From Porticoccaceae bacterium (GTDB lineage: Bacteria; Pseudomonadota; Gammaproteobacteria; Pseudomonadales; Porticoccaceae): a DNA stretch of 64,000 nt. The notes beneath the pieces were generated by a model. It was not told the origin of the DNA. It did no database searches and saw only the letters and a list, made by a program, of their open reading frames with translations. Shown here in pieces: positions 4,048-11,291 of the stretch (its first letter is position 1; every line of letters begins with the position of its first letter). The stretch spans positions 124,001 to 188,000 of the forward strand of contig JABILI010000097.1 of assembly GCA_018654575.1 (NCBI GenBank), written 5' to 3'. A program made the position numbers and the translations under genes.

Positions 4048-5877
4048 ATGTGTGGAATAGTTGGCGCTACTGCTCAGCGTAATGTGTATAAGATTCTTAT
4101 TGAAGGGTTACATCGCCTTGAATATCGAGGCTATGATTCAGCGGGACTGTCGATTCTAGATAGTGATAACGTGCTGCAGACACGTAAAACCATTGGCAAG
4201 GTTGCTGACCTAGAGGCTGTCTGCAAAGGCAACTTTGTGTCGGGCAATACCGGAATATCTCATACGCGATGGGCGACCCACGGAGCACCTAGCAGCATAA
4301 ATTCGCATCCCCATGTGTCGGCGGGTATATCGATCGTACACAACGGCATTATTGAAAATCACGATGCCCTCCGAGAGGAACTGCGTCCGGCGGGTTATGA
4401 GAGTCAGTCTGACACTGACAGCGAAGTCATCGCGCACCTTGTCCACCAACAGCTTGAGACTTGCACCGACCTTAGAGACGCGGTACAAAAGACCATTACC
4501 CGCCTCGAGGGCGCCTATGCCTTGGGCGTTATGTCTGATGACTATCCAGGCTTGATCGTAGGCGCTCGGAGCGGCAGCCCTTTAGTGGTTGGCGTTGGTA
4601 TAGATGAGCACTTTCTCGCCTCTGATCAGATGGCTTTACGTCAGGTCACGGATCGCTTTGTGTATCTTGAAGAAGGTGATGTGGTAGAGCTTTCCAGCGA
4701 GGCCTTCAGCGTATTTGGCGCTAACGGCAAAGCGGTTAAACGAGAAATCCACCAGATGAGTGAAACGGACCAGCGAGCCGATAAAGGGCAATACCGTCAT
4801 TTCATGCAAAAAGAAATGTTCGAACAGGCAACTGTGTTGGCCGACACTTTCGCCGGCCGTATTGGGGCTGACCATATTCTCGAGGCGGTGTTTGGGCATC
4901 AAGCTGAGAGCCTTTTTGCACAGACGAAAAACATTCATATTGTTGCTTGCGGAACCAGTTTTCATTCTGGATTAGTGGCAAAGTATTGGCTTGAAGACAT
5001 GGCTGGCGTGCCCTGCCAAGTTGAGGTCGCTAGTGAGTACCGTTATCGCAAAGTTGCAATACCCGATGGAACATTATTTGTCACTATCTCCCAATCAGGA
5101 GAGACGGCAGACACTCTGGCCGCACTTCACAAGGCCAAAGAAAGTAGTTACCTTGGCTTTGTGGCTATTTGTAATGTGGCTAACAGCTCCCTTGTCCGAG
5201 AGTCAGACATTTCGCTGATGACAATGGCGGGCCCTGAGATTGGAGTGGCCTCGACCAAAGCATTTACGACACAGCTTGTGGCCCTACAACTCCTAACGCT
5301 TTCATTAGGAAGACATACTGGCTTGCCAGCTGAGATGGAAGCAGAGTGGGTTAAAAACTTACATCAACTCCCAGGTCTTTGTGAGCGTGTGCTAGCCCTT
5401 GATCCGGTCATTGAAAAGATGTCAGAGGCCTTCGCCAACAAGCATCATGCCCTTTTCTTAGGCCGCGGCGAACAGTTCCCCATAGCGCTTGAAGGCGCGC
5501 TAAAGTTAAAAGAAATCTCCTACATTCATGCCGAGGCTTATCCCTCGGGTGAACTAAAGCATGGGCCGTTGGCGCTGGTGGACGAAGAGATGCCAGTGGT
5601 AACTATTGCCCCCAATAATGAATTACTGGATAAGCTCAAGTCTAATCTTCACGAGGTGCGCGCTCGGGGCGGTGAATTGTTTGTGTTTGCTGATTGCAGC
5701 GCGGACTTTAGCAGTGAGCCGGGCATTATCGTAATTGATATGCCGCCGGTCCCTAAAAGTCTTGAGGCCATAATCTATACCCTGCCCCTCCAGATGCTTT
5801 CATATCGGGTGGCTTTATTGAAAGGCACCGATGTTGATCAGCCAAGGAATTTGGCAAAATCGGTAACGGTGGAGTAA
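4048..5877 (+). CDS. glmS: Glutamine-fructose-6-phosphate aminotransferase (isomerising)
   Basis: GlmS makes glucosamine-6-phosphate from fructose-6-phosphate and glutamine, the entry step to UDP-GlcNAc. The 609-aa protein starts MCGIVGA, so Cys2 is the N-terminal nucleophile of the glutaminase domain. Two SIS domains follow (ACGTSFHSG, SQSGETADT, GRGEQFPIALEGALKLKE). It ends DQPRNLAKSVTVE, the near-invariant C-terminus whose DNA is the recognition target of Tn7 (attTn7). The DNA just downstream is unusual: the last codons and following ~20 bases recur three more times (see repeats). Confidence 0.97.
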   Translation: MCGIVGATAQRNVYKILIEGLHRLEYRGYDSAGLSILDSDNVLQTRKTIGKVADLEAVCKGNFVSGNTGISHTRWATHGAPSSINSHPHVSAGISIVHNGIIENHDALREELRPAGYESQSDTDSEVIAHLVHQQLETCTDLRDAVQKTITRLEGAYALGVMSDDYPGLIVGARSGSPLVVGVGIDEHFLASDQMALRQVTDRFVYLEEGDVVELSSEAFSVFGANGKAVKREIHQMSETDQRADKGQYRHFMQKEMFEQATVLADTFAGRIGADHILEAVFGHQAESLFAQTKNIHIVACGTSFHSGLVAKYWLEDMAGVPCQVEVASEYRYRKVAIPDGTLFVTISQSGETADTLAALHKAKESSYLGFVAICNVANSSLVRESDISLMTMAGPEIGVASTKAFTTQLVALQLLTLSLGRHTGLPAEMEAEWVKNLHQLPGLCERVLALDPVIEKMSEAFANKHHALFLGRGEQFPIALEGALKLKEISYIHAEAYPSGELKHGPLALVDEEMPVVTIAPNNELLDKLKSNLHEVRARGGELFVFADCSADFSSEPGIIVIDMPPVPKSLEAIIYTLPLQMLSYRVALLKGTDVDQPRNLAKSVTVE

Positions 5878-5898
5878 TTTGGAACAGAGAATTAAATG
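5866..5898 (+). repeat. glmS-end repeat, copy A (glmS 3' end and its downstream bases)
   Basis: This copy comprises ACGGTGGAGTAA (the last glmS codons and stop), then AACAG at 5883 and TTAAATG at 5892, with the next ORF's ATG at 5896. It is taken as the reference for the three copies downstream. From GGAG to ATG is 25 bases. Confidence 0.6.
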
Positions 5899-6045
5899 AA
5901 TAAAAAAATAATAATTTCACAATCAATTATGTGGGCAGCAGCAATTCTTGTTGTTTCAATTGTTGAAGAAAAAGAGTTTGCTGTATTGATGCTTGTAATA
6001 TTGGCAACAACTTCTTTGATTACCCTTAGGAAGGGAAATGAATAA
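5896..6045 (+). CDS. Small hydrophobic protein, 49 aa, unknown function
   Basis: The predicted peptide begins MNKKIIISQSIMWAAAILVV. It has a basic N-terminus, a hydrophobic stretch at about residues 8-21, an acidic break (EEKEF) and a second hydrophobic stretch at about 28-42, ending TLRKGNE. This fits a two-span inner-membrane mini-protein. The base composition is much richer in A+T than that of glmS, which ends 18 bases upstream. I do not recognise the family. The ribosome site is poor (GGAACAGAG about 7 bases from ATG). The stop region overlaps the start of another short ORF at 6038. Confidence 0.45.
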   Translation: MNKKIIISQSIMWAAAILVVSIVEEKEFAVLMLVILATTSLITLRKGNE

Positions 6046-6154
6046 AAAAGAAATCGAGGTTTATTTGAAGTTCCATAGAGAGTTCAGAAAAAATCATGAT
6101 CTCAATTCTGCACTCAAACTGAACTCGTCACCGTCGAGTAGAACAGAACAGTGA
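6038..6154 (+). CDS. Possible 38-aa basic peptide, unknown function
   Basis: The ATG at 6038 overlaps the 3' end of the preceding small ORF by 8 bases. The peptide begins MNKKEIEVYLKFHREFRKNH and is charged, with no membrane segment. Its last codons run through glmS-end repeat copy B, so the C-terminus (SSPSSRTEQ) looks like accidental read-through into repeat DNA. It may be a truncated remnant of a longer gene. Evidence for coding is only the overlap with its neighbour and an A-rich start. Confidence 0.25.
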   Translation: MNKKEIEVYLKFHREFRKNHDLNSALKLNSSPSSRTEQ

Positions 6155-6162
6155 ATTAAAGA
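6130..6162 (+). repeat. glmS-end repeat, copy B
   Basis: ACCGTCGAGTAG here reads V-T-V-E-stop like the glmS end (ACGGTGGAGTAA), differing only at third codon positions and in the stop type. AACAG occurs twice (6142 and 6147), then AATTAAA. The base corresponding to the A of the ATG in the other copies lies 25 bases from the GAG block, the same spacing. Confidence 0.5.
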
Positions 6163-6171
6163 GAGGAAATT

Positions 6172-6291
6172 ATGGAAGGATTAGCAATAATGGGATTTAT
6201 TTTTGGTTTGGCAGCATTTGGGAAAGTTCTGCTGCTTGAAAAACAGATGAAAGAAAAGGGAATTCTAGGACAGGGTGACAAGGAAGAGTAA
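6172..6291 (+). CDS. Small single-span membrane protein, 39 aa, unknown function
   Basis: The peptide begins MEGLAIMGFIFGLAAFGKVL. An N-terminal hydrophobic segment of about 20 residues is followed by a charged tail (LEKQMKEKGILGQGDKEE), as in many single-pass mini-proteins with a cytoplasmic coil. A good ribosome site (GAGAGGAAATT) lies directly upstream. It follows repeat copy B by 10 bases, so it has the same position relative to a repeat as the other genes in this AT-rich block. No function can be assigned. Confidence 0.55.
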   Translation: MEGLAIMGFIFGLAAFGKVLLLEKQMKEKGILGQGDKEE

Positions 6292-6315
6292 AGCGCTACA
6301 CCAAAACACCCGAGA

Positions 6316-6348
6316 ACTGTGGAGTCAGTTGAAACAGGGATTTAAATG
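6316..6348 (+). repeat. glmS-end repeat, copy C
   Basis: ACTGTGGAGT at 6316, AACAG at 6333 and TTTAAATG at 6341, with the next gene's ATG at 6346. Aligned without gaps to copy A from GGAGT through ATGAA, 25 of 30 bases match. The GGAG-to-ATG spacing is identical (25 bases). Confidence 0.6.
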
Positions 6349-6828
6349 AAAAAATATACGTTTATATTATCTTTCTTGTTGATAAGCACAAATATTTTTG
6401 GTGAAACTAACATATTTGGTCATTGGTTGACGTCAGGCTCAATTGTAAAGATTGAGAATTGTGATGATTATATTTGTGCAAAAATTGAAACACTTTTTGT
6501 AGAAGACGGTGTTGATCCAAAACAAATACTTGATGATCAAAATAAAGATAAATCTCTTAGATCAAGGCCTCTTGTTGGAATAAACATTTTAGATAATTTT
6601 TTGATTAAGGATATAAATCAGAAAACATTTAAAGGCGGGAAAATCTATGATCCGAGACGCGGGAAAACCTATAAATCTAATCTTTATCTTAACGATAATG
6701 GAATTTTAAGAGTTGAAGGGTGTGTTGCATTTATATGTGATGGAGAGGATTGGAGGCCTCTTGAAGTAACAATTAATGAGGATGGGACCAAGGAGGCGGT
6801 TCTTAAAAATTCTTCTCAAAGTGATTAG
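6346..6828 (+). CDS. Secreted DUF2147 family protein
   Basis: The 160-aa precursor has a signal peptide (MKKYTFILSFLLISTNIFG). The mature part matches the DUF2147 plan: GHWLTSGSIVKIENC near the start, a Cys pair (NCDDYICAKIE), a central LRSRPLVGINIL, then GGKIYDPRRGKTYKSNLYL and a final GCVAFICDGEDWRP. DUF2147 proteins are exported lipocalin-like small proteins without an established activity. The composition is AT-rich and codon use is unlike glmS. The ATG lies inside repeat copy C. Signs of horizontal acquisition are strong; the function is unknown. Confidence 0.8.
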   Translation: MKKYTFILSFLLISTNIFGETNIFGHWLTSGSIVKIENCDDYICAKIETLFVEDGVDPKQILDDQNKDKSLRSRPLVGINILDNFLIKDINQKTFKGGKIYDPRRGKTYKSNLYLNDNGILRVEGCVAFICDGEDWRPLEVTINEDGTKEAVLKNSSQSD

Positions 6829-6873
6829 TGTCTTGGAGTATGTCACAAAATTTAGCGGTAACCTTGCTCGATT

Positions 6874-6907
6874 ATTGTGGAGTAGAAATGGTTGTAACAG
6901 TTAAATG
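6874..6907 (+). repeat. glmS-end repeat, copy D
   Basis: ATTGTGGAGTAG at 6874, AACAG at 6896 and TTAAATG at 6901, with the next ATG at 6905, 26 bases from GGAG. About 25 bases further upstream, AATTTAGC (6849-6856) also resembles the Asn-Leu-Ala codons that precede the glmS end. Confidence 0.5.
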
Positions 6908-7225
6908 GAAGATCTGATAATTTTTGCTACAATTTTGTTTATGTCATTTACTTATCTGTTAATTGGATTTGGGATAAATCAAAAAAACGCCAAATATTTC
7001 CTTGCTGGTTACAATACAATGTCGGCAGAAAAAAAAGAACATTTTGATATAGACAACTATTTAAAATTCTTCAAATCTTTTTTTAAGAAACTCTTTCTAT
7101 TTCCTCCGCTTTCTTTTATTTTATTTTCAATTTTTCGCGAAGGTGATTCTTTAATTGTGATTTGGTCTTTAGCTCAAGTCGTTCCATTTGTTTTGTTTCA
7201 AGCAAAGAGTTCGAAATACCACTAA
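6905..7225 (+). CDS. DUF3784-like membrane protein
   Basis: The 106-aa protein has hydrophobic segments at about residues 4-22, 63-77 and 82-98. Between the first two is AGYNTMSAEKKEHFDIDNYLKF, closely resembling the GYNTMSKEEK motif that defines DUF3784, a small membrane family more familiar from Firmicutes and Bacteroidetes. The gene is very AT-rich and its ATG lies in repeat copy D. It is the last gene of the AT-rich block; GC content rises again from about 7240. The function is unknown. Confidence 0.65.
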   Translation: MEDLIIFATILFMSFTYLLIGFGINQKNAKYFLAGYNTMSAEKKEHFDIDNYLKFFKSFFKKLFLFPPLSFILFSIFREGDSLIVIWSLAQVVPFVLFQAKSSKYH

Positions 7226-7356
7226 ATGAAATAGAAGCGCAAAAACTTGCAGGCCCATCCCTTTAAGGAGTAGCACGCCACCGCTATTGCATCGAGCAAG
7301 TATTGACAGCTACAATGCCAATAGACACAACGCCTAATGATGAGGATAAGACCAGC

Positions 7357-8445
7357 ATGAAAATCTTACGAACACCAGATCACTGTTTTGAGGGTATCCA
7401 AGACTACCCTTTTGAGCCGCATTATACCGTGATCAAAACTCACGATGGTTCTGATTTACGTATTCATCACCTCGATGAGGGCCCAGCAGATGGTCCAATT
7501 TTATTAGCCATGCATGGCCAGCCAGTGTGGAGTTATTTGTACGCCAGAATGATTCCTCATTTAGTAAAGGCCGGCATCAGGGTGATAGCGCCAGATCTGC
7601 CAGGGTATGGTAAATCTGATAAACCTGCTGCCAGAGAAGATTATAGTTACCAGAGTCAGGTCGACTGGATGAATCAATGGCTAGTGCAGAATGATTTTTC
7701 AAATCTTACTTTTTTTGGCCAAGATTGGGGCGGTTTAATTGGCCTACGTATGGTGGCAGATAATGGTGATCGATTTGATCGCGTGGCTATGGGCAATACA
7801 GGGCTGCCCTATAGTCCCGATGTTCCAGACAGCGTTGCCGAAGAAATTTTAGCGTTTAGAGCCAGTTCTCAGAGGCTCAGCATGGCATCGATGATGCAAC
7901 AGGTCCGCAAAATGGATGGCTTTGGAGGCGCTGAAGATCCTTATGGGGGGGTCCGTAAATTTGCCTATTGGCAAAAATATACTTGGGATACGGTTAATGT
8001 TCCAGCTGGCATTATTGCCTCCTCAATGATGGAATCACGACAAAAGTTAGCGATAGCTGCAGAGTTACTAATGGGTAACCTTGGCTTGCAAAAAGTGTCA
8101 CCCTTTAGAACGGATATATCTAGAGCCTTTGAAGCTCCCTTCCCTAGTGCAGCGTTTAAGATGGCGGTGCGCGCCATGCCCAGTCAGGTGCCTAGCATTC
8201 CCGATCAGTCGCTGGATGCACAGAAGAAAGCATGGGAATTCTTCTCTGCATTTGAAAAACCATTTTTGTGTGTCGGTGCTGGGGATGATCCGGTAACTAA
8301 TGGTTTTGAAAAACTGTTTTTAGCCAAAGTGCCAGGGACAAAAGATCAGCCCCACCAGATGATAGGTGGCGGACATTTCTTTCAATGGACCAAAGCCGAG
8401 AAGCTTTCGCAGGTGCTGTCTGCTTTTATTCACATTTGTCTTTAA
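7357..8445 (+). CDS. Haloalkane-dehalogenase-like alpha/beta hydrolase with long cap
   Basis: The start at 7357 (MKILRTPDHCF) matches the family N-terminus and has a GAGG site about 11 bases upstream; the frame is also open to an ATG at 7303. HGQPVWSYLY at residues 53-62 is the oxyanion/halide loop. GQDWGG places the nucleophile at about Asp123 with the halide-stabilising Trp124 next to it. GGGHFFQ near the C-terminus carries the catalytic His. Members cleave carbon-halogen bonds hydrolytically. The protein is 362 aa against ~300 for most of the family; the extra length lies between the nucleophile and the His, in the cap. The true substrate could differ (for example an epoxide). Confidence 0.82.
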   Translation: MKILRTPDHCFEGIQDYPFEPHYTVIKTHDGSDLRIHHLDEGPADGPILLAMHGQPVWSYLYARMIPHLVKAGIRVIAPDLPGYGKSDKPAAREDYSYQSQVDWMNQWLVQNDFSNLTFFGQDWGGLIGLRMVADNGDRFDRVAMGNTGLPYSPDVPDSVAEEILAFRASSQRLSMASMMQQVRKMDGFGGAEDPYGGVRKFAYWQKYTWDTVNVPAGIIASSMMESRQKLAIAAELLMGNLGLQKVSPFRTDISRAFEAPFPSAAFKMAVRAMPSQVPSIPDQSLDAQKKAWEFFSAFEKPFLCVGAGDDPVTNGFEKLFLAKVPGTKDQPHQMIGGGHFFQWTKAEKLSQVLSAFIHICL

Positions 8446-8482
8446 TTAAGGGCTAAGCTAGTGCTGTTCTGTCAGGGAGTGA

Positions 8483-8788
8483 ATGATGAAAACCGGGCTG
8501 CGTGTTTTTGCGTATGTATTGATTTGGACAACGCCACTGCAATTATTGTTGGTGATCTGGGGAGGCTTTATTGTTCTGACCACTGACTATGGTGTTTTAT
8601 CGCTCACCCACAAGGCATTTTTCGTCGACTATGTGCCTGTTTTTATGGTGGTTGTTGATTGGCTATATGGTTGGATGTGGGGGCCATACCTTGATTTTAT
8701 TTTCGGATTACCACTGATTTTTGCTCAAGCGTTTAAGGCTCTTGCCAGTACCTTTTTGGGGTTATGGATCCTAAGGAAAACAGGTTAA
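8483..8788 (+). CDS. Small integral membrane protein, 101 aa, unknown
   Basis: GGGAG lies 4-8 bases upstream of the ATG. The peptide has hydrophobic spans at about residues 8-33, 48-66 and 72-97, with many aromatic residues (DWLYGWMWGPYLDF). I do not recognise a family. It lies 37 bases after the dehalogenase-like gene and before another membrane protein and a periplasmic sugar dehydrogenase, so it may belong to the same transcript. Confidence 0.65.
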   Translation: MMKTGLRVFAYVLIWTTPLQLLLVIWGGFIVLTTDYGVLSLTHKAFFVDYVPVFMVVVDWLYGWMWGPYLDFIFGLPLIFAQAFKALASTFLGLWILRKTG

Positions 8789-8807
8789 AAGCAGAGTGGA
8801 AGAGCCT

Positions 8808-8852
8808 ATGAAAAACATTAAGACACAAAATATGGATAGAGGAGAAACATGA
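8808..8852 (+). CDS. Possible 14-codon leader ORF coupled to the next gene
   Basis: The reading frame MKNIKTQNMDRGET ends in a TGA that overlaps the ATG of the membrane protein at 8849 (ATGA). A GGAAGAG motif stands a few bases upstream. The overlap suggests translational coupling, but a frame this short occurs easily by chance and its GAGGAG segment (8839-8844) is also the ribosome site of the next gene. Confidence 0.2.
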   Translation: MKNIKTQNMDRGET

Positions 8853-9310
8853 TTAAGGGCAGCGTCTCGTTTTTAGTTGCGGTGGCCATCGCCACAGTTT
8901 TATTGGTTACACAAACAACCGCGAGTAACATAGCCTGGCTATCCAGCATGGATATGCCGATCGACACCCCAATGGTGGCTTCAATGTTGATTGGCGATCT
9001 GATTGGCATGAACTTTAAAGGGGAGTTTCCCGTGGCCGCTCTGATTTTTGTCGGAATGCTCATCGCCTTTGTTGTCGCGCGGATTGTTCTTGTTTGGGTT
9101 GATATAGATAAAAGGTACCTTTATGCCTTGGCTGGCGGCGCGGCTCTTTTTGCCATTGTTGGCTTGATGCCTTTGGCCTTTTACAACCTTGATCTTATTG
9201 CCGGCGCAAGAAGCCTTCTCGGCAAGGTGTATTTAATTTGCTCAGGCATGATTGCCGGCTACTATTTTGGCGCTCGTCAAACGGAGGGCAGTACAGATGA
9301 AAATCGTTAA
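8849..9310 (+). CDS. Integral membrane protein, 153 aa, unknown
   Basis: The start has a strong GAGGAGAAAC ribosome site. Four hydrophobic segments are visible: about residues 4-25, 62-83, 89-109 and 123-142. There is no catalytic motif that I recognise. The last 14 bases overlap the start of the PQQ-type sugar dehydrogenase gene, indicating one operon. It could be a membrane partner of that periplasmic enzyme, which is speculation from adjacency. Confidence 0.7.
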   Translation: MIKGSVSFLVAVAIATVLLVTQTTASNIAWLSSMDMPIDTPMVASMLIGDLIGMNFKGEFPVAALIFVGMLIAFVVARIVLVWVDIDKRYLYALAGGAALFAIVGLMPLAFYNLDLIAGARSLLGKVYLICSGMIAGYYFGARQTEGSTDENR

Positions 9311-10403
9311 GTTTTTAAGTCTATTGGGTTGGCAGCTTGTTCTAAGTTCAAGCGCTGGCGCTGGCGACCAGTATGAAACTGAAATTCTGGCCCAGGGATT
9401 AGACCATCCGTGGAGTATGGCCTATATTTCTGACACGCAAATGTTAGTGACCGAGCTTTCTGGTGAATTAAAACTGATTACTGATGGTCAACTACGACCA
9501 ACGCCGATCGAGGGCGTGCCCGAGGTTTTGTTTGCCGGTCAAGGAGGGCTGTCAGAGGTTCTTTTGCACCCAGAATTTGAAGAGAATGGATTTGTGTATC
9601 TGTCCTTTTCTGCTCCCGACACGCAGGAGCCAGCGCTAAACAGCCTCAATGTCGTTCGAGCGCGATTAAAAGGGGACACGCTTGTTGAGCATAAAACTAT
9701 TTTCAAGTCGGATCCACCACGAAAGACCGCGGCCCACTACGGAGCACGGCTAGCCTTTATGGCTGACGGGAGTTTATTGATCACATCTGGCGATGGCTTC
9801 AACTATCGAGAAAAAGCCCAGTCCCTAGATAACCACTTTGGCAAAATTCTGCGTGTTAACGATGACGGTAGCATCCCAGTAGATAATCCCTTTGCTAACA
9901 CCCCGGGGGCGCTGCCTGAGATTTGGTCCTATGGGCATCGCAATTTACAGGGATTGGTTATTCAAGACGACGGGACTGTTTTTGAACATGAGCATGGCCC
10001 GAAGGGTGGTGATGAACTTAACATCATAGTGCCGGGCAACAACTATGGCTGGCCGGCCATCACCTATGGGATTGATTATAGTGGCGCGACTATTTCACCG
10101 TTCACCGAGAAAGTAGGCATGGAACAACCGGTAAAATACTGGGTGCCATCAATAGCCCCTTCAAGCATGGCGCTCTATCAAGGCGATATGTTTCCTAGCT
10201 GGAATGGTGATCTATTTATCTCAGCGATGGTGCCAGGTGATTTAAGGCGGCTAGAGCTTAATGGTGAAAAAGTCGCTGACGAAGAAATATTATTTCCTGA
10301 ACTGGGTAGAATTCGAAATATCATTATTGCCCCAGATGGTAGCCTGATTATTGCCACTGACGGAAAGGACGGGAAACTAGTGAGGGTGTTTGCAGACAAT
10401 TAG
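9297..10403 (+). CDS. PQQ-dependent aldose sugar dehydrogenase family protein (soluble GDH type)
   Basis: The ATG at 9297 has GGAGGG 8 bases upstream and gives a signal peptide (MKIVKFLSLLGWQLVLSSSAGA). The mature part is a six-bladed propeller of the GDH/Yli family: HPWSMAYI carrying the catalytic His, GGLSEVLLHPEF, GDGFNYREKAQSLDNHFGKILR, PEIWSYGHRNLQGL and EHGPKGGDELNII...NNYGWP. Such enzymes oxidise sugars in the periplasm with PQQ, passing electrons to the respiratory chain. The 368 aa length is normal. No pqqA-E biosynthesis genes are near, although a PqqB-like protein lies at 59272. Confidence 0.88.
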   Translation: MKIVKFLSLLGWQLVLSSSAGAGDQYETEILAQGLDHPWSMAYISDTQMLVTELSGELKLITDGQLRPTPIEGVPEVLFAGQGGLSEVLLHPEFEENGFVYLSFSAPDTQEPALNSLNVVRARLKGDTLVEHKTIFKSDPPRKTAAHYGARLAFMADGSLLITSGDGFNYREKAQSLDNHFGKILRVNDDGSIPVDNPFANTPGALPEIWSYGHRNLQGLVIQDDGTVFEHEHGPKGGDELNIIVPGNNYGWPAITYGIDYSGATISPFTEKVGMEQPVKYWVPSIAPSSMALYQGDMFPSWNGDLFISAMVPGDLRRLELNGEKVADEEILFPELGRIRNIIIAPDGSLIIATDGKDGKLVRVFADN

Positions 10404-10442: not shown

Positions 10443-11291
10443 CTATTGGCTTCTTAACGATGAAAGGCCAGCTTGAAGTTGTTGAAGATGCTCTTGTAAC
10501 TTCGGACCTTTCTTTTGTGCAACACCGATCGCTAAAACATCAATCACGGCTAAATGGGCAATGCGAGAAGATAATGGTGTGTAGATCTGAATATCCTCTT
10601 TCGCGTCGACCTCAATAGCGATTGTCGCGCTTTTTGCAACGGGTGATGCGCTGGGCGCTAAGCCAATTACGATACCTCCAGCACTTTTAACCAACTCCAT
10701 AGAATCTAGCAATGCTTGGGATCGTCCCGATTGAGAGATAGCGACAACCACATCGCCAGCATTTAGAGAGGCTGCGGACATATTTTGCAGATGCGGGTCA
10801 GAGTAGGCTGCAGAGGTTATTTGAAGCCTAAAAAACTTGTGTTGTGCATCAAAGGCCACTGCGGCAGATGCGCCAAAGCCATAGAACTCAACGCGACCGG
10901 CAGCGCAAATAGCCGCCACAGCCGCTTCAAGATTTTCCAAGATCAGGCTGTCACGAACCTTCAACAAGGCATCAACGGTAGAGTCGAAAACCTTATGAGT
11001 ATATTCTCGGGTGGAGTCCGTATCAGTAACCGCAATCTGGCCATAGCTTGGACTGGATGCAAGCTGTTGAGCAAGCGCCAGCTTAAAGTCTTGAAAGCCG
11101 TGACAACCCACAGCGCGACAAAACCGGACAACGGTGGGTTCACTCACTCCAGCCTTTTGGGCTAAATCTACTATACGCATCCTGATTACATTCAGCGGTG
11201 ATTTGAGAACAAAATCGGCTACTTTGCGCTCTGATTTTCGAAGCGCGGGCAGCGTGTCACTGATGGTTTGGGTCAATTGAGCGGGTTTCAT
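10443..11291 (-). CDS. hexR: RpiR/HexR-type regulator of sugar catabolism
   Basis: The 282-aa protein has the N-terminal RpiR helix-turn-helix (KSERKVADFVLKSP...VSEPTVVRFCRAVGCHGFQDFKLALAQ, residues ~19-78) and a sugar-phosphate-binding SIS domain (~120-255, with ISQSGRSQALLDSM). The helix-turn-helix is very close to that of gammaproteobacterial HexR, which senses KDPG and represses Entner-Doudoroff and related genes. The usual zwf-pgl-edd neighbours are absent. A HexR-like palindrome lies 20 bases upstream of its start. It converges on the sugar dehydrogenase gene. Confidence 0.75.
   Translation of the reverse strand: MKPAQLTQTISDTLPALRKSERKVADFVLKSPLNVIRMRIVDLAQKAGVSEPTVVRFCRAVGCHGFQDFKLALAQQLASSPSYGQIAVTDTDSTREYTHKVFDSTVDALLKVRDSLILENLEAAVAAICAAGRVEFYGFGASAAVAFDAQHKFFRLQITSAAYSDPHLQNMSAASLNAGDVVVAISQSGRSQALLDSMELVKSAGGIVIGLAPSASPVAKSATIAIEVDAKEDIQIYTPLSSRIAHLAVIDVLAIGVAQKKGPKLQEHLQQLQAGLSSLRSQ

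Follow-up and report, generated by a model that had tools for sequence, protein, structure and literature searches.

The window analysed here is a 64,000-nucleotide stretch of DNA from a marine Porticoccaceae bacterium (GenBank assembly GCA_018654575.1, contig JABILI010000097.1, positions 124,001 to 188,000), in which the essential glmS gene is followed by a row of small genes. The DNA from 5878 to 7225 belongs to an array in which small gene units have been inserted behind glmS, with copies of the glmS end, called cores, between the units (Table 1). Four copies of this glmS-end motif had been claimed in an earlier sequence-only reading, and direct inspection of the sequence confirms them at the same positions. 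A gapped template taken from the first copy (GTGGAGT, AACAG and TTAAA; 17 letters), picked after the copies had been seen, gives exactly four matches of at least 15 of the 17 letters on the forward strand of the window, at 5869, 6133, 6319 and 6877, and no fifth. None of 1000 dinucleotide shuffles of 5878-7300 reached the three template matches observed there (mean 0.017). A fixed-spacing pattern with at most two mismatches missed the copies, because the gap between the motif parts varies.

The site scores in Table 1 count the fixed bases of the 13-base core pattern TCNGTNACNGTNGAGTA; they are highest at site A, equal at B and D, and lowest at C. Two-mismatch cores number 44 in the genome of the window, compared with 84 for the reversed control pattern, which is at or below background. 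Sites B, C and D therefore carry weight through their position and through the comparison with relatives, and not through the core alone.

Table 1. Features of the window from glmS to the next gene conserved in the genus (ORF, open reading frame; G and C numbers are our labels for genomes and contigs).
Feature	Position	Strand	Remarks
glmS	4048..5877	+	609-aa ORF; last codons are the landing site, attB-like
Site A	5860..5895	+	glmS end 5860-5876, core TCGGTAACGGTGGAGTA (13/13 fixed bases), right arm ATTTGGAACAGAGAATTAA, then ATG 5896
49-aa ORF	5896..6045	+	homologue behind glmS core in contig C21 of G003, the closest relative
38-aa ORF	6038..6154	+	3' end reads through site B; homologues end at the core in G025, G047, G153
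Left arm of site B	6104..6123	+	same arm precedes cores in G025, G047, G153
Site B	6124..6161	+	core CTCGTCACCGTCGAGTA (11/13) and right arm
39-aa MEGLA-type ORF	6172..6291	+	widespread unit; directly behind glmS in several relatives
Site C	6310..6345	+	degenerate core (9/13) and right arm AGTTGAAACAGGGATTTAA; ATG 6346 next
DUF2147 protein, 160 aa	6346..6828	+	PF09917, E 1.8e-23
Site D	6868..6904	+	core TCGATTATTGTGGAGTA (11/13) and right arm; ATG 6905 next
DUF3784 protein, 106 aa	6905..7225	+	PF12650, E 3.1e-11; final unit of the array
RpiR-type regulator	10443..11291	-	next conserved gene in the genus; outer limit of the variable region

Comparison of related genomes shows that units are gained, lost and exchanged at the glmS-end cores, so that the segments between repeats do come and go as units, a point on which the sequence-only reading had proposed a check. 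G114 and G115 form an empty/filled pair, in which the sequence GATTTCATATCT after a core is common to both and G115 has one extra unit of 192 bp, containing a MEGLA-like gene, between two cores. Beyond this unit, the two are 98.4% identical over 2813 bp. G006 and G020 share two blocks, one of 657 bp (97.6%) and one of 453 bp (97.4%), which enclose different units. The first stops shortly after a core, and the second opens with the left arm of the next core. The first common block lies directly behind glmS in G006 and behind another short ORF in G020, in whose assembly glmS was not found. Between the different genera of G025 and G153, the last 96 bp of a unit, including the core, are 90.6% identical, with 74.7% for glmS. 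In G003, two contigs have the same 55 bases of the glmS end and fork directly after the stop codon, and one branch is the unit of the window with the 49-aa ORF.

The whole region is variable, and a larger conserved block (7357-10403) is found only in some genomes, as could result from homologous replacement of the entire glmS-rpiR stretch between strains, with no site-specific recombination and with the repeats as leftovers. Such a replacement is very unlikely, because the breakpoints fall at the 17-bp core, the copies span the same short stretch each time, and the 192-bp insertion of G115 sits within 98.4% identical DNA. The block at 7357-10403 runs from a hydrolase gene to a sorbosone-dehydrogenase-like gene, between the array and rpiR. 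It is present in only eight of the compared regions and is therefore accessory too. PADLOC returned nothing for the five window ORFs. The cassette genes are small and foreign.

The C-terminal part of GlmS was detected in 99 of the 114 relatives searched. Within the genus, the distance from glmS to the RpiR gene ranges from 177 bp (G041, G023) up to ~9 kb (G006). The rpiR border was found in 23 Porticoccaceae genomes, and these delimited regions (49.5 kb) were scanned for the 17-bp core with TCNGTNACNGTNGAGTA at a threshold of at least 11 of 13 fixed bases. Twenty secondary cores were located on the forward strand, distributed over 14 of the 23 genomes, and none on the reverse strand; beyond the rpiR border, three core matches occur in 220 kb. 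The chance expectation is estimated at about half a match per strand, and one or two of the 11/13 matches (e.g., that of G021) may therefore be due to chance. Seventeen loci without a defined border add one extra core on the forward strand (G059, 3.6 kb downstream) and one on the reverse strand (G003). Exact cores, mostly glmS itself, are listed for 88 of the 112 family genomes, and a selection from this list has second cores in G061, G115, G148, G149 and G153, which belong to two other genera. The contigs of G024 and G015 stop within the last glmS codons.

An exact glmS-end core also lies away from glmS in G061 (C4:137846, locus L212). It is followed by a promoter-like stretch that is 73% identical to one behind a G025 core, and two large genes further on resemble, by eye, a type III restriction-modification pair. 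Behind glmS in G093 (locus L283), which is from a different family (f25), two cores enclose a lipoprotein-like cassette of 96 aa that is a cassette of the window's genus.

When 26 secondary cores were compared with glmS of the same genome, differences occurred at 82 of 130 wobble positions and at 25 of 312 other positions, the latter figure being limited by the threshold of core detection. Among the eight cores that agree at all non-wobble positions, 28 of 40 wobble positions are nevertheless different. This comparison covered cores within 4 kb and set aside G003b, G020, G015, G031 and G007. Wobble-biased differences fit cores that came from other hosts, or a reading frame that is kept since an inserted core becomes the GlmS end; a neutral duplicate of the host's own glmS end does not fit. 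Together with the movement of units at the junctions and the restriction to the forward strand, this bias supports the earlier proposal that the array grew by addition of gene-sized segments at the glmS 3' end, every segment bringing a glmS end of its own.

The same observation bears on a Tn7-like or casposon-like transposition that duplicates its target site at glmS. The glmS end is the Tn7 site, and the units have terminal inverted repeats flanked by direct repeats, but in copies of the host's own glmS end differences would not be expected to fall mostly at wobble positions. For the Tn7 type, in addition, TniQ was above the cut-off in none of 50 genus genomes, with one sub-threshold match in G011. 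Transposition of this kind is highly improbable, and the array is not Tn7 as far as tested; a TnsD/TniQ-like gene was one of those that the sequence-only reading had proposed to look for.

The units are framed by arms, and these were compared in 29 core-bounded segments (segments of up to 3 kb and cores within 6 kb) by pairing the 32 bases that follow the first core with the 32 that precede the second under DNA parameters. Strong matched arms, i.e., inverted repeats of -11 kcal/mol or better, are present in 12 of the 29 segments. A segment's own pair averages -9.1 and other pairs -6.1, and 0 of 20,000 permutations reach the observed sum. The arm sequences vary from unit to unit. In the 12 segments and in G038, the stem is positioned 2-10 bases before the core and 0-7 bases after it, with an offset of 2-4 bases in all 13 cases. 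The linear junctions fold no better than shuffles (mean z -0.34, n=23, counted on sites free of N and with enough left sequence, a condition that removes nearly all primary sites). This is expected if the arms flanking one core come from different units.

Rows of small one-gene units separated by a site also call to mind ordinary integron cassettes, i.e., clusters of attC sites lacking integron-integrases (CALINs), at a secondary site. That origin is scarcely credible, since the linear junctions form no hairpin and IntI is above the cut-off in only one of the 50 genus genomes, G011, where it lies on a contig other than that of glmS, beside an ordinary and different-looking attC array. The array of G011 (C3:150064 to the contig end, locus L227) is an ordinary chromosomal integron, with a 327-aa IntI, the only full one among the 50 genomes, and a cassette row with classical attC-like sites; by eye, these sites look unlike those of the glmS arrays.

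Six of the 50 genus genomes have PF07508 matches at threshold, and these matches include short proteins in G015 and inside the G038 and G047 arrays, which belong to the orfA family. This small, stand-alone family resembles the DNA-binding Recombinase domain of large serine recombinases; its members are above the Pfam cut-off in G038 and G108, and below it in the others. The orfA profile identified 22 places in 20 of the 112 family genomes. Nine of them are directly behind a glmS core, one is behind a core after an assembly gap (G007) and two are behind a secondary core; four more are elsewhere in the same region, two adjoin a complete site that lies downstream of a PpiD-like gene, and four are elsewhere. 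An order-wide sample of 194 genomes gave orfA matches in 14, of which 13 are outside the genus. Nine of these outside loci were read, leaving those of G224, G197, G235 and G076 (the last on another contig than its glmS). Seven of the nine have orfA directly behind a glmS core, in five families, and in G084 and G179 the match is a long ORF (529 and 480 aa, respectively) with no core nearby. In phage and plasmid records, orfA has one weak phage match, annotated as a resolvase, and no plasmid match.

The two sites downstream of the PpiD-like gene (G145:C37 and G149:C85; loci L265 and L266) consist of a left arm, a core (10 and 11 of 13), a right arm and an orfA remnant. Located between PpiD-like and lytic-transglycosylase-like genes, they mark a second landing place of the same elements. 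Several assemblies break within ~2.2 kb behind glmS (G003:C51, G046:C290, G058:C22, G144:C48, G150:C31, G151:C33, G155:C125). The occurrence of such breaks in many orfA-bearing genomes hints at several element copies or mixed populations.

A complete element of 7.47 kb was found behind glmS in G108, a member of another family, between two cores that each have 13 of 13 fixed bases. Its arms are matched: GTTTC-AACTGGTGAAATA and its complement with one extra base. Besides orfA, the element encodes an HUH Rep (PF23343 above cut-off) and a resolvase, along with two genes named by eye as desaturase-like and TetR-like. It also encodes a 583-aa protein that has both a Resolvase and a Recombinase domain, and the gene of this protein ends 36 bp before the far core. 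Two proteins of the element, of 583 and 203 aa, have Resolvase/Recombinase domains, and part of the larger one matches the A118 serine integrase by sequence. DNA homologous to the desaturase/TetR-like part lies behind glmS in G042, in the opposite orientation. The G108 recombinase has only distant matches in plasmids, in 15 records, all below 60% identity. Small serine-recombinase-like ORFs are also present 4 and 9 kb behind glmS in G286 and G242. The array had been described as lacking a visible integrase; a candidate enzyme, a serine recombinase, is now available from a complete element of another family, and by PF07508 the window's genome has none.

The HUH Rep would be a different catalyst. 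In a rolling-circle process, the arms would form the stem and the glmS-like core the loop of an origin-like hairpin, and Rep would nick the loop and join single-stranded circles to glmS. An HUH Rep (PF23343 above cut-off) follows orfA in G003, as it does in G108, and G150 has a weaker, sub-threshold match behind orfA. Arms that vary between units yet match within one would suit such a hairpin, as would the folding of the first 45 bases after the core, which is in the lowest 5% of shuffles at 7 of 17 orfA loci versus 1 of 35 others. The HUH proteins TrwC and adeno-associated virus Rep act as site-specific integrases (PMC6049929). Against this, only two of the 112 family genomes have relatives of the G003 Rep, and the one at G115:C2 belongs to a different, coreless element; the complete element of G108 also has two serine recombinases, and dyad arms are equally expected of the half-sites of a double-stranded recombinase. 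On balance, a Rep-driven process is unlikely. Two core patterns gave 0 matches in viral contigs, Rep and orfA queries confirmed no relative there, and plasmid and phage records yielded no Rep relative. The element of G115 (C2:50000-66000, locus L233) is a different mobile element without a glmS core, carrying an integrase-like ORF, the G003-related Rep and a serine resolvase.

Recombination of the cores by a tyrosine integrase acting in trans, from phages or other elements, is rather more doubtful. PF00589 is matched in 35 of the 50 genus genomes, and PMC10872708 links tyrosine recombinases with additive islands at tRNA ends and with tycheposons. By coordinates, though, no glmS has a PF00589 match on its contig within 8 kb; nor does the G108 element contain one, judging from its ORFs without a family search of each. 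In G018, a single contig that is 98% complete, there is no PF00589 match, which means that XerC/XerD go unseen by that search. At the start of contig C3 of G048 (locus L224), an ORF for a 326-aa tyrosine integrase has the end of a sigma-factor gene on one side and an MDYWFLM-type gene on the other; the latter is a glmS cassette elsewhere.

Taken together, the array is probably a cassette system homing to glmS that resembles the staphylococcal cassette chromosome (SCC), moved by a serine recombinase in trans. A gene-end target, a core at both borders, a dyad in the distal site and in the circle, and a recombinase-bearing element with its riders correspond to the anatomy of SCC and its enterococcal counterpart (ECC). 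A circular unit would carry an att site with dyad symmetry, made of the left arm, the glmS-like core and the right arm. Crossover between this circle and the glmS end would place the unit behind glmS, and the old glmS end would be carried downstream as the next core. GlmS would stay intact, because the core encodes SVTVE-stop. A serine recombinase is the likely catalyst; it would come from an autonomous element, of which that of G108 is a complete example, and orfA may serve as a site recogniser alongside it. We infer that the recombinase also acts on the small units, so that the gene-sized units would be riders needing the enzyme in trans.

Several observations weigh against this reading. Nine of the 23 delimited regions have no secondary core at the threshold used, and 17 of the 29 segments have no strong matched arms. 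The latter include the window's three, which rank 19, 28 and 29 of 29 in arm matching and therefore look old or composite. A further correction to the sequence-only reading concerns the first segment of the window, in which there are two small ORFs. The window's genome is below the PF07508 threshold, and orfA and Rep are absent from it by the profiles used. No relative of the G108 recombinase was found in any other locus compared, so its link to the small units rests on that element. No circular form was seen. The genomes are mostly fragmented metagenome-assembled genomes; arrays do occur in the few-contig genomes G018, G019, G025, G038 and G011, which argues against an assembly artefact.

A more far-reaching proposal can be put forward tentatively, and is itself rather doubtful: a gene-cassette capture system apart from integrons, operating at the glmS 3' end in several families of the order. 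Here orfA, similar to the DNA-binding half of a serine recombinase and without a catalytic half, would recognise the site, and a partner, either a serine recombinase or the HUH Rep, would move single-gene circles whose end arms co-vary around the glmS-mimicking core. The host's need for the GlmS C-terminus would keep the mimic in frame. Should the glmS cassette mechanism prove right, bacteria that lack an integron would own an integron-like single-gene slot behind a highly conserved gene, with a landing sequence guarded by the fact that the cell needs GlmS. A hypervariable spot in marine Porticoccaceae would then be accounted for, natural att sites would be available at a safe harbour, and the many tiny unknown cassette genes could be tested as a set.

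Among known systems, Tn7 uses the same gene end as a safe landing site, and attTn7 is a safe harbour already used in engineering. The glmS arrays differ in that no TniQ is above the cut-off and that copies of the glmS end are made, whereas Tn7 is not known to make any. Integrons and CALINs likewise have single-gene cassettes in a row, in one reading direction, behind a fixed entry site. In contrast to them, 49 of the 50 genus genomes have no IntI at the cut-off, there is no attC hairpin, and glmS is the entry. No description of such glmS arrays was found in the open-access literature, as judged by titles and the starts of abstracts. The fGI-2 additive islands of Methylophilaceae contain recurring gene-end copies between segments of 330 bp-42 kb with mostly unknown genes (PMC10872708), and gene-end repeats with variable segments between them also recur at glmS. 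The anchor of those islands is a tRNA, with tRNA 3'-end repeats, whereas glmS is protein-coding and has a wobble-tolerant core, matched unit-specific arms and orfA.

The closest parallel is offered by SCC of Staphylococcus and ECC of Enterococcus. As described in PMC6222049, these elements land at rlmH, in the last bases of a conserved gene. They have att repeats at both borders, the complete element carries a serine recombinase, and several att sites may follow one another; the dyad of the distal and circular att sites is taken there as characteristic of serine recombinases. Dyad att repeats were found in G108 and in 12 of the 29 segments, and not in the window's own segments. The ccrAB-type serine recombinases of SCC and ECC have putative counterparts in the two G108 proteins with Resolvase/Recombinase domains. 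The two systems differ in target (rlmH there, the glmS end here) and in size, with 21-78 kb there and one to three small genes per unit here; orfA and Rep belong to the glmS system. New here are glmS as the target, single-gene units, orfA and matched unit-specific arms.

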